Shown one piece after another: positions 51,762-55,440 of a stretch of DNA of 55,440 bases. Position 1 is the first letter of the stretch. Each line of letters opens with the position of its first letter. The translations under genes and the position numbers were made by a program. The stretch is from positions 1 through 55,440 of the forward strand of contig CAMYLZ010000018.1 of assembly GCA_947259375.1 (NCBI GenBank), written 5' to 3'. Below the pieces are notes generated by a model. It saw nothing but the letters and a program-made list of their open reading frames with translations, had not been told where the DNA came from and searched no databases. This DNA is from an uncultured Parvularculaceae bacterium. Its GTDB lineage: Bacteria > Pseudomonadota > Alphaproteobacteria > Caulobacterales > Parvularculaceae.

Positions 51762-53291
51762 ATGAATTCCGGAGAAAATGGCGCGTCGAAGCGGGACGCC
51801 GGAAAAGGGCTTGCCTTGCCAGGCTTGATCATCGGCCTTTTAACCGGCCTTGCGGCCTATGGGATCATCGAATTCTGGATCGACGGGCGCGATGATAATC
51901 CGCTGGCGATTGCCGCGCTGTTTTTCGTCATCACCGCCTCCGCCGCATATTTGTTGCTGGCCGAGCGCGCTTCGCTCTTCAGGGCCCTTGGAGGAGCATT
52001 GGCAATCGCCATCATGCTCGCCCTGCCCGACTATTTCATGACTGCCGCCGCGCTCGACGATTTCGACAATCTTTCCGACTTTCCCGCGATGTTCTGGTTC
52101 GCGACGAGCCGCGGGCTTGTCGCCTATTTGCTCGCAACGCTTTTCAAGGCCGGGTTCGAGGGCGGCGCGGGATTGCATCTCAAGCCGGCTTATCGCGACG
52201 TTTTTTTTCACGGATTGACGATGCCGCTGATCGGCGGCGGGGCGCTATTATTTGCCGGTCTTGCAGTAGTCTTGCTGTTCGCCTGGGCGCGGCTGTTGAA
52301 GGAACTCGATGTCGGTTTCTTCAACGCGCTGTTTCAGGAGCCGTGGTTCCTGTTGCCATTTATCGGCGCCATTGGCGGGCTGTCGATCGCCCTCATTCGC
52401 GGGCTGCAATCCGTGCTCGGGGCGCTGCGATTCATCTTGCTGCTGATTGCGCGAATCTTGATGGTGATCACCGCCGTGTTCACCCTGACGTTGCTGCTCG
52501 TGCTGGCGACAAAAGGCGTCGCGCCGGTGTTCGACCAGCCTTACCCCAGCGCCCTGATGCTCGGGCTGGCCCTGGCCGGCATGTTGATTTTCAACGGCGT
52601 TTATCAAAATGGCGAGGCCGCGCCGCCGCCATTATGGCTGCGCCTGCCGACGCTCGCGACGCTTATCGGCTTTCCAGTCTATGCGCTGATCGCATTTTAC
52701 GCATTCTGGCTGCGGGTCGGCGAATATGGCCTTACCCCGCCGCGCATTGCCGGGCTGACAGTCAACGGTCTGGTCGCCGCTTATTCCATTGTCTGCCTCG
52801 CCGGGCTGGCGAGCGAGCTCAACTGGCGCGGCAAACGCTGGATGCCGCCGGTCGGCTCCTTGAATACGGCCATGGCGGCGCTTTGGGTCGCCGCGCTCAT
52901 TTTGCTGGCGACGCCGCTCATCAATCCATGGGCGATCAGCGCGCGCAGCCAGCTTGCCCGCATCGCCGATCAGCGCGTCGCCGCAGCGGATTTCGACTTC
53001 GGCTATTTGCGTTTCCAGCTTGGCCGCCATGGCGACAAGGCGCTCGATGAGATGCTGTTGCTCGAAGACCACCCGGAAGCGCCCGCGATCCGCGACGGCG
53101 TCAAACGCGCGCGCTCGGCGAGGAACTATTGGGAATATCGCCATCCGGTAATTATCGACAACGGCGGCGACGAAACCGCCGGACGAGAACCGCCGCCAGA
53201 AGAATCGCTCGACCGGCCGGAGACCTTGCCGATCAATCCCGGACCGGACGTCGACCCGCCGCCAGCGGGCGAGCCGCAAAACGGCCGCTAG
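51762..53291 (+). CDS. DUF4153 domain-containing membrane protein
   Basis: 509 residues from ATG 51762 (GAGGG a few bases upstream). About 11-12 membrane helices between residues 20 and 400, then a ~110-residue soluble tail (FGYLRFQLGRHGDKALDEML, ARNYWEYRHPVI). The helix layout and the segment VGEYGLTPPRIAGLTVNGLV are typical of DUF4153, a family of unknown role. The Pro/Glu-rich end overlaps the stop of the convergent XRE gene by 4 bp. Confidence 0.88.
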   Translation: MNSGENGASKRDAGKGLALPGLIIGLLTGLAAYGIIEFWIDGRDDNPLAIAALFFVITASAAYLLLAERASLFRALGGALAIAIMLALPDYFMTAAALDDFDNLSDFPAMFWFATSRGLVAYLLATLFKAGFEGGAGLHLKPAYRDVFFHGLTMPLIGGGALLFAGLAVVLLFAWARLLKELDVGFFNALFQEPWFLLPFIGAIGGLSIALIRGLQSVLGALRFILLLIARILMVITAVFTLTLLLVLATKGVAPVFDQPYPSALMLGLALAGMLIFNGVYQNGEAAPPPLWLRLPTLATLIGFPVYALIAFYAFWLRVGEYGLTPPRIAGLTVNGLVAAYSIVCLAGLASELNWRGKRWMPPVGSLNTAMAALWVAALILLATPLINPWAISARSQLARIADQRVAAADFDFGYLRFQLGRHGDKALDEMLLLEDHPEAPAIRDGVKRARSARNYWEYRHPVIIDNGGDETAGREPPPEESLDRPETLPINPGPDVDPPPAGEPQNGR

Positions 53292-53539
53292 GCGTCGGCC
53301 TTTTCTTCTTCTCTCTTCAGCATGTGGATCTTGCGGCTCGGGCCATTGTAATCCTCAACCCCTTGCGAGATCGCATAGCAGGCCAGGCGCACGGCGCGGG
53401 GGATCTTTACTTCGTCGCCCGAGCGTTCGCCCTTTTCGTAATATTGGATCATGCGCCGCTTGAGGCCGAGCAGATGCGCGGCGTCTTTTTGGGACAGCCC
53501 GAGCGTCTTACGCCATTTTTTGAAGTCGCTGGCTTCCAT
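53288..53539 (-). CDS. XRE-family helix-turn-helix regulator
   Basis: 83 residues. A single HTH_3 domain at about 5-55: FKKWRKTLGLSQKDAAHLLG with recognition helix LKRRMIQYYEKGERSG, then IPRAVRLACYAISQGVEDYN. No partner toxin or sensor domain is seen. It is the last protein gene before the tmRNA locus, divergent from it; its promoter must lie in 53540-53640, beside the ssrA promoter. Targets unknown. Confidence 0.9.
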   Translation of the reverse strand: MEASDFKKWRKTLGLSQKDAAHLLGLKRRMIQYYEKGERSGDEVKIPRAVRLACYAISQGVEDYNGPSRKIHMLKREEEKADA

Positions 53540-53642
53540 CGCCTTGTCCCGGAGCTGTCATCCTTGCTTCAGCGCACATAATGCATGGATGTTACAGAAT
53601 CTTGACAACATTGACTAATTTTCAGCCGAACGCATAGAAACC

Positions 53643-53671
53643 CTTTAAATCCCCGAAATTGGGCCCTATAT
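53643..53671 (+). promoter_or_regulatory. Probable ssrA promoter
   Basis: CTTTAA (53643-53648), 17-bp spacer, CTATAT (53666-53671). The -10 equals and the -35 matches 4 of 6 of the alphaproteobacterial CTTGAC-N17-CTATAT pattern. Two further TTGAC motifs (53602, 53611) lie upstream. Transcription would start near 53678, just before the acceptor piece. Confidence 0.5.
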
Positions 53672-53679
53672 TCCCCGAG

Positions 53680-54027
53680 CTCGCGCAAGCGGGCTATGGC
53701 GATAAATGACGCGTGTAATAACCGTATCGGACCCGGGGGCGGTACCCGGCGGCTCCACCACATCCCCTCTCCCGCAATTTCCGTAATGCGGCTGGGAGGT
53801 TGTGACGGGGCCGAACTAGGATCGACGAGCGTCTAAAGACGATGTTTTCGCCCGGTTTGCCTCCGTTATTTGGCTACAACTGAATAGTTGCCAATGACAA
53901 CTACTCGGAAGAGTTCGCTCTCGCTGCGTAACGCGGCGCGACAAACTCGCATTTAAAGTCCTGGCCTCTTTCCAAGGCCAGGCGGGGCCCCCGGCGCCTG
54001 GCAACAGAAGCCGGGACTTTATTTTCT
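53680..54027 (+). ncRNA. ssrA: Two-piece (circularly permuted) tmRNA
   Basis: Order is acceptor piece, intervening segment, coding piece. The acceptor piece ends ...CGGCTCCACCA at 53760. The coding piece starts at 53807 with GGGGCCGAACTAGGATCGAC. GGGGCCG (53807-53813) pairs with CGGCTCC to give a 7-bp acceptor stem with a G3-U70 wobble, the alanine identity element. GACGC (53708-53712) and GCGTC (53829-53833) may form part of P2. A tag frame is at 53890-53931. A 3' helix AAAGTCCTGG (53955-53964) with CCGGGACTTT (54011-54020) precedes TTATTTTCT and probably ends the RNA. Both outer ends and the internal cuts (about 53761-53806 removed) are estimates. It rescues stalled ribosomes and tags the nascent protein for ClpXP. 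sspB lies downstream. Confidence 0.93.
53890..53931 (+). other. tmRNA tag reading frame, tag (A)ANDNYSEEFALAA
   Basis: Resume codon GCC (53890-53892) followed by codons for NDNYSEEFALAA and TAA (53929-53931). With the alanine charged on the tmRNA, the appended tag is AANDNYSEEFALAA, one of the long alphaproteobacterial type (Caulobacter AANDNFAEEFAVAA, from memory). AANDNY is the SspB-binding part and ALAA the ClpX-binding part. AGTTG precedes the resume codon, as in other tmRNAs. Confidence 0.92.
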
Positions 54028-54289
54028 CCCCAACAACCCGAGCACCACCTTTCGTCGCCGGGATTTCTTAAAATTGCGCCCATTCGGGCGCGGGAGCTTG
54101 CGGCGCAAGAAACTGCTTATCGCTGCGTTCAAACCGAAAATGATGTGACAAGGCGGTGTGTGCCGATCCGCTTAAAGCCACGCTGCGTCAAAATCTGCAG
54201 CGCGCAATTACGCATCGCCAATGCTGGCGCCGCGCGAACAACGCCGCTAAAAGAGTGAGCGAAGACAACGAAAAGGCGATTACGTTCCC
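54028..54289. other. Region between ssrA and sspB with a possible 12-codon leader frame
   Basis: No protein gene of normal size. A small hairpin CTTGC-GGC-GCAAG lies near 54098-54110. Near the 3' end GTGAGCGAAGACA (54255-54267) almost repeats the sspB start GTGAGTGAAGACA (54290-54302). From GTG 54255 there is a 12-codon frame (MSEDNEKAITFP) whose TGA overlaps the sspB GTG as GTGA. This could couple translation or be a duplication scar. Confidence 0.4.
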
Positions 54290-54853
54290 GTGAGTGAAGA
54301 CATCGAACTCGACTATGGCGACCTCATTCAAGAAGCGCAGAAAATGGCGTATCGCTTTTTGATGCGCGATGTTCTGCGCATTGTCGCGGAAATCGGCGAC
54401 GCGCCAGGCGAGCACCATTTCTTCATAGAATTCAAGACCGGCGCGGACGGCGTCTCCATTCCCGACCATCTCAAGGAACAATATCCAGAGTTAATGACCA
54501 TCGTGCTGCAGCACCAATTCAACGACCTGACCGTCAATGACGACCAGTTCGGCGTAACGCTATGGTTCAAAGGCAAGGAAGCGCGGCTCGAAATCCCGTT
54601 CGATGCAGTCACGCAATTCGCCGACCCGAGCGCGCAATTCGGCGTTCGCTTCGACGCCGATGCGGAAGGCGACGCCGCGGCGATTGCAACCGGTGACGAA
54701 GACGCCGGCAACGCCCCCGTCGGCGCCAAGGCCGATGGCGATGACGCATCCACGGCGGATGCCGAAACAACGACTGACGAGACCGAAGACAAACCGGCAA
54801 AATCCGGCGACGGCGCGGACGTAGTCAGCCTCGACGCCTTCCGGAAAAAATAG
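54290..54853 (+). CDS. sspB: ClpXP adaptor SspB (alpha type)
   Basis: 187 residues, start GTG 54290; AAAAGG is 13 bp upstream, a long spacing. The SspB fold spans about 1-125: DYGDLIQEAQKMAYRFLMRD, EHHFFIEFKTGADGVSIPDH, LKEQYPELMTIVLQHQFNDL, VNDDQFGVTLWFKGKEARLE and IPFDAVTQFADPSAQFGVRF. Residues about 126-180 are an acidic disordered linker, ending in DVVSLDAFRKK, the short C-terminal peptide that docks on ClpX. SspB holds ssrA-tagged proteins and delivers them to ClpXP. It lies about 260 bp downstream of the tmRNA gene on the same strand. Confidence 0.95.
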   Translation: MSEDIELDYGDLIQEAQKMAYRFLMRDVLRIVAEIGDAPGEHHFFIEFKTGADGVSIPDHLKEQYPELMTIVLQHQFNDLTVNDDQFGVTLWFKGKEARLEIPFDAVTQFADPSAQFGVRFDADAEGDAAAIATGDEDAGNAPVGAKADGDDASTADAETTTDETEDKPAKSGDGADVVSLDAFRKK

Positions 54854-54856
54854 CGC

Positions 54857-55440
54857 TTAACGCACCGTGCCTGCCGCCGCATGCACGACAGCAAAATCGT
54901 CTTCATAGATCCGGCGCCAGCCTTCCATCTTGTCGAGTAGCACGACGCGCTTGTCGGCGGGCGGATATAGCGACCAGCCTATGCCGTATTTTTCGATCTG
55001 CATGCGGATCACGCCCTCGCCGCCGGCGAGACCGCTCTCATGAATGTCATGCATAAAGCCGTCCTGGAACAGGCGGTCCGCGCGGCCATCGACGAAAGTG
55101 GGAATACGCTCGTAAATCAGGGCGCCGCCGAAACTGTAATCATTAATGACATTGCCCTGAACGCCTTGCGCGCGCGCCGCAGCGATGGCGGCCGCCGGAT
55201 AGCTGCGTTGCGGCGACCAATCCGCAAGGCTTACGGCTGCTGCGAACGCGGCGACCAAAAGACCGGCGCTTGCGATAAGCGCCTGCGGCGCCAACCGCGC
55301 CATCGCCTGCTCGATACGGTCATTTTCCACACGGCGCGCCCAACGCGCGAACGAGATCGCCGGAAGTTCTTTTGCCAGCTCCGCAATGCCGATGATCGGC
55401 GCTAGCATGAATAACAGATACATGAAGCGCACATGGGTGA
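54857..55440 (-). CDS. Membrane protein, C-terminal part (partial; glycosyltransferase-like tail)
   Basis: The frame is open to the right edge, so the N-terminus lies outside. About 190 residues are seen: two membrane helices (near MRFMYLLFMLAPIIGIAELA and LIASAGLLVAAFAAAVSL), then a soluble region with VINDYSFGGALIYERIPTFV and DGRADRLFQDGF. The N-D-Y-x-x-G-G-x-L followed by F-V/I-D-G-R-A-D pattern occurs at the end of multi-helix proteins related to GT-C/ArnT-like mannosyltransferases whose role is often unassigned. Convergent with sspB, 3 bp apart. The gene family is stated by pattern only. Confidence 0.75.
   Translation of the reverse strand, partial: THVRFMYLLFMLAPIIGIAELAKELPAISFARWARRVENDRIEQAMARLAPQALIASAGLLVAAFAAAVSLADWSPQRSYPAAAIAAARAQGVQGNVINDYSFGGALIYERIPTFVDGRADRLFQDGFMHDIHESGLAGGEGVIRMQIEKYGIGWSLYPPADKRVVLLDKMEGWRRIYEDDFAVVHAAAGTVR

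Follow-up and report, generated by a model that had tools for sequence, protein, structure and literature searches.

In the genome of an uncultured bacterium of the family Parvularculaceae, a circularly permuted tmRNA gene (ssrA) lies directly upstream of sspB, which is encoded on the same strand. We assign a probability of approximately 95% to the reading that this is an intact and functional ssrA gene of the alphaproteobacterial type, whose transcript is processed into a two-piece RNA and whose tagged products are delivered by the SspB protein encoded next door. The two genes reside near one end of the window, which is the entire 55,440-nucleotide stretch of contig CAMYLZ010000018.1 analysed here. 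A tmRNA frees stuck ribosomes and tags unfinished proteins, and the SspB adaptor takes the tagged proteins to degradation. Both components are of known kinds, the RNA being a known two-piece tmRNA and the protein a member of the known SspB family, and no evidence against either identity was found in this analysis.

PMC11915505 reports 11,946 unique permuted tmRNA sequences and describes a transcript that is cut by tRNA-processing enzymes. Likewise, the two-piece tmRNA of Caulobacter is described as functional in PMC3985003, which also cites Lessner 2007 on SspB and ClpXP, perhaps in alphaproteobacteria also. Our literature search, which included passages of PMC3985003, PMC11915505, and PMC8119881, found no mention of ssrA-sspB adjacency, and we make no claim that the arrangement is unpublished.

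A permuted tmRNA gene with a complete acceptor stem

The covariance-model search proposed with the original prediction yields a full-length match. Specifically, the Rfam model for alpha_tmRNA (RF01849, model positions 1–355 of 355) aligns to positions 53640–54018 of the forward strand with a score of 246.3 bits (E = 2.3e-70), where the cut-off is 50 bits. A second Rfam model, RF04321, matches positions 53698–53931 with 137.7 bits, and ARAGORN independently calls a permuted tmRNA (tmRNA*) at 53664–54022 on the same strand with the tag ANDNYSEEFALAA. Both Rfam and ARAGORN found the tmRNA, and the remark that such genes tend to escape standard gene finders is not borne out for these two tools. 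The genome contains one tmRNA match and one SspB match, and among 14 control genomes RF01849 matches Caulobacter vibrioides only.

The acceptor end reads CGGCTCC-A-CCA (53750–53760), with the CCA ending at position 53760, and GGGGCCG (53807–53813) forms the start of the coding piece. These are the boundaries that had been predicted. The predicted tRNA-Ala-like pairing of the two pieces is also present, since all seven of seven positions pair to complete a 7-bp acceptor stem. The third pair is G-U (G3-U70), which is the known alanine identity pair.

The acceptor piece spans 53679–53760 (+), with an approximate 5′ end that is placed from a promoter-like site. Stem pairing defines an intervening spacer of 46 nt (53761–53806, +), whose removal is expected only. 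The coding piece (53807–54018, +) is delimited by RF01849 and ARAGORN and has an approximate 3′ end. Within it, ARAGORN places a tag frame that runs from GCC to TAA (53890–53931, +) and encodes ANDNYSEEFALAA followed by the stop. Two loci of the window's order, L141 and L139, carry the same tag, as does L263. A regular expression for the acceptor stem gave some 5-nt spacers when applied across the class, which are probably misreads; spacer length by this approach is reported for the window alone.

The gene had been described as split and permuted. The permutation is confirmed, but the word split should be used with caution: the locus is a single circularly permuted gene, and two pieces would arise through RNA processing. 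It shares with the permuted two-piece tmRNA of alphaproteobacteria (RF01849; Caulobacter ssrA) the full-length model match, the order of the pieces, the stem, the CCA, and the ANDN tag, and we observe no substantial difference from the Caulobacter type. As had been proposed, positions 53540–54289 likely carry no ordinary protein gene, judging from the size of the ORFs and their overlap with the RNA and sspB; those of at least 60 amino acids that touch this region are 150, 64, 62, 60, and 97 amino acids long. No match to an SmpB motif is present within the window.

By analogy with the known families, the primary transcript of ssrA would consist of the acceptor piece, the 46-nt spacer, and the coding piece, in that order. 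Processing would remove the spacer and leave two pieces that remain paired as a tRNA-Ala-like RNA. This RNA would then be charged with alanine and enter stalled ribosomes. Because the alanine carried by a tmRNA is included in the tag peptide, stalled products would receive A-ANDNYSEEFALAA, with the first alanine supplied by the RNA. Presumably, SspB produced from the adjacent gene would bind the start of this tag and bring the tagged proteins to ClpXP.

The SspB protein and a flanking regulator

The sspB gene (54290–54853, +) was correctly predicted to lie downstream on the same strand. It begins with a GTG start codon and encodes a protein of 187 amino acids that matches PF04386 (140.4 bits, E = 6.4e-41) and ends in VVSLDAFRKK. 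No NCBIfam family matched this ORF at an E-value of 0.001. The nearest solved chains are 2nys (residues 19–187), 2qas (residues 18–124), and 2qaz (residues 18–123), the last of which is named SspB Protein. The family match and the C-terminal pattern are shared with the alphaproteobacterial SspB adaptor (PF04386; 2qaz, 2qas, 2nys). Endings similar to VVSLDAFRKK are present in 54 of the 68 SspB ends from the class that were read by script, with 10 further adjacent genomes unread. This C-terminal tail may be the ClpX-binding portion of the protein. Distinguishing features of the window's SspB are its GTG start, the 17 residues that precede the Pfam match, and a linker between core and tail that is unlike those in the other aligned SspB rows.

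Among the best 80 of 584 named SspB loci, the nearest are two from Marinicaulis sp., one from an uncultured alphaproteobacterium, and one from Parvularculaceae. Over the compared stretch, no difference is visible by eye between the same-genus locus L128 and the Marinicaulis locus L261, so Marinicaulis or a close neighbour is the probable source of the window. Upstream of ssrA is a divergently oriented gene for a small HTH_3 regulator (53288–53539, −; PF01381, E = 3.3e-8), which is outside the system. Its letters recur by eye upstream of ssrA in L261 and L263.

Gene order across the class

The order of the two genes could be an inherited relic without regulatory meaning, in which a terminator stops transcription at the end of ssrA and sspB relies on a separate promoter. 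We give this explanation somewhat less than an even chance. In a survey of 114 genomes of the class, one per family, a tmRNA match over the cut-off is present in 108, an SspB match in 107, and both in 105. The original prediction had suggested that adjacency be checked in related genomes, and in 78 of these 105 family representatives an SspB match in the same orientation begins within 1 kb downstream of ssrA, at a median distance of 109 nt. Such retention argues against a relic, whereas the 27 of 105 genomes that lack this order within 1 kb are consistent with one. In 8 of the 105, SspB is farther downstream on the same strand and contig, and in 19 it is elsewhere (on another contig, on the other strand, or upstream), although some of these cases may be assembly breaks.

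The window's order is more loosely organized. Both genes are present in 41 of 41 genomes, with SspB less than 1 kb downstream in 21, separated by 1.5–12 kb on the same strand in 12, and located elsewhere in 8. The last two groups also favour a relic.

Adjacency is also evident outside this survey. Of the best 80 of 584 named SspB loci, which were selected by similarity to the query, 54 have an ARAGORN tmRNA that ends ahead of the SspB match in the same orientation, and in one additional locus (L278) the tmRNA end overlaps the start of the SspB match. The count of 54 is probably too low because ARAGORN gave tags in just 90 of the 110 class loci examined; several of the named loci also include less than 1 kb of upstream sequence. 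Judging from the lengths of genomes, chance placement would yield almost no such adjacency. Since the genomes share ancestry, the pattern reflects an old gene order that has been kept, rather than many independent events, and this order is probably ancestral in the class.

A strict partnership between ssrA and SspB is disfavoured by two class genomes with SspB and no tmRNA match (G019 and G053) and by three with a tmRNA and no SspB. For L126 (G068), from a class genome without SspB, ARAGORN reads a non-permuted tmRNA with the tag ADDNFEYAMAA. Three other genomes (G043, G047, and G073) have neither an alpha_tmRNA match over the cut-off nor SspB.

Transcription of the gene pair

A promoter-like sequence, TTTAAA-17-TATATT (53644–53672, +; 9 of 12 matches), precedes ssrA and lies inside the RF01849 match. 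The region 53540–54900 contains two promoter-like sites, compared to a mean of 0.6 after shuffling, and TATAT is kept by eye in five of six aligned rows. A simple scan also identifies a terminator-like feature at 53997–54025 (+), where the last tmRNA hairpin is followed by the T-rich sequence ACTTTATTTT. This signal is weak because three terminator-like sites occur on both strands of the region versus a shuffle mean of 2.4. Its position between the genes would speak mildly against an ssrA-sspB operon here and fits a relic, as does the gap of 271 nt from the end of the tmRNA match to the sspB start codon. The distance to the SspB match, 322 nt, is longer than the class median. Conversely, the simple scan finds no promoter-like site in the ssrA-sspB gap, which argues against a relic.

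To compare genomes, a T-tract was defined as at least 5 T in 8 nucleotides, and the 106 genomes that offer 60 nt or more of downstream sequence were included. Where the two genes are linked, 21 of 78 genomes have a T-tract after the tmRNA; where they are unlinked, 17 of 28 do (Fisher p = 0.0025, kinship ignored). Another comparison of T counts also showed a difference between these groups (p = 0.0005, kinship ignored). The lower frequency of T-tracts where sspB follows argues against a relic. However, linked genomes are richer in G+C than unlinked genomes, and the effect becomes weak once G+C enters the model (t = −1.9, or −2.4 for gaps of at most 200 nt). In addition, even linked genomes have T-tracts more often (27%) than positions drawn at random from the 200 nt upstream (13%), which again favours a relic. 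T counts were rejected as proof of read-through, given that much of the difference follows G+C and that linked genomes are still above random places. A hairpin-plus-T score was likewise discarded as a read-through test, since linked and unlinked genomes do not differ at four of five thresholds (p = 0.04 at the fifth).

On balance, the T-tract data lean only slightly toward read-through in tightly linked relatives, and for the window they point the other way. Some SspB may be supplied by read-through from the ssrA promoter, although this contribution would be weaker here than in those relatives because of the T-rich tail, the longer gap, and the looser linkage in the window's order. As in the original prediction, cotranscription of ssrA and sspB stays an unproven arrangement that we only infer.

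Tag sequence and the presence of SspB

A broader proposal is that ssrA and sspB form a class-wide tag-and-deliver transcription unit, with the stable tmRNA as the leader of the adaptor mRNA, and that tag and adaptor coevolve such that lineages without SspB tend to lose the SspB-binding start of the tag as well. We regard this proposal as unlikely overall. The ANDN tag start is present in the window and in 76 of the 86 class genomes that have both SspB and an ARAGORN tag. The other 10 have different tags, some of them long with repeated ANxN, and the tag of G052 has evidently been misread.

Unusually long ARAGORN tags were noted in L101 (G070), L032 (G017), L067 (G011), and L115 (G044), and further in L120 (G077), L121 (G087), L300, and L314. 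Most contain at least two ANxN-like motifs, for example ANSNVANGNSVGATGGFAAFAPANGNFAAVAA. These tags reflect either a wrongly placed resume codon or a repeated SspB-binding motif.

Loss of ANDN accompanies loss of SspB in two orders and not in a third. In the order of G083, SspB is present in 0 of 40 genomes and tmRNA in 40 of 40, and all 30 tags read are without ANDN. In the order of G039, SspB is present in 0 of 18 genomes and tmRNA in 14 of 18; ANDN is absent from 14 of 14 tags read from 15 loci. These 14 tags represent 13 genomes, two of the tags being from G192, and the tag of G039 itself likewise lacks ANDN. Combined, 44 of 44 tags read from these two SspB-less orders are without ANDN. 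In the order of G025, SspB is present in 17 of 40 genomes and in 0 of 21 from the family of G025 itself, and this SspB-less family has kept ANDNELALAA in 11 of 11 tags read. Strict co-loss of the tag start and SspB is ruled out as a rule by this family. In another family of the same order, the SspB-less genomes G211 and G213 carry ANNN and ANEN. SspB-bearing members of the order have ANDN in 16 of 17 tags read, the exception being G238 (ANESYALAA), which has two strong tmRNA matches, perhaps from contamination, one of which was read.

Possible insertions at the tmRNA 3′ end

We examined 20 intervening stretches, representing 7 of the 8 class cases with a far SspB, all 12 from the window's order, and G231. 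Four of them, L341 (G003), L342 (G007), L359 (G129), and L360 (G231), contain tmRNA-end repeats that exceed five shuffles and are clear by eye. Downstream repeats of this type resemble the kind of trace left by ssrA integration. Insertion at the tmRNA 3′ end is not supported by these 20 stretches as the general cause of displaced sspB genes. The window's own gap scores 15 against the tmRNA end, while shuffles reach 20, and shows no repeat. In L128, the gap after the tmRNA contains an additional tmRNA 3′ end that scores 51 against the tmRNA end of the window (shuffles up to 21) and 21 against that of L128 itself, which is no better than shuffles. This pattern looks as if the tmRNA end had been swapped by insertion.

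The RNA is conserved across three loci from the same genus and in two named near relatives, whereas the downstream gap has diverged. Together with the full-length 246-bit match, the intact acceptor stem, the CCA, and the tag frame, this makes a decayed gene or a false tmRNA match, for which we found no evidence, exceedingly improbable.

Implications

These results allow ssrA to be annotated correctly in the window and show that most of the sampled families of the class with both genes (78 of 105) retain the ssrA-sspB order. Should the two genes share a transcript, tmRNA processing would influence the supply of the tmRNA's own adaptor. Moreover, the contrast among SspB-less groups, in which 44 of 44 tags are without ANDN and 11 of 11 have it, could help test the extent to which SspB constrains the tag.
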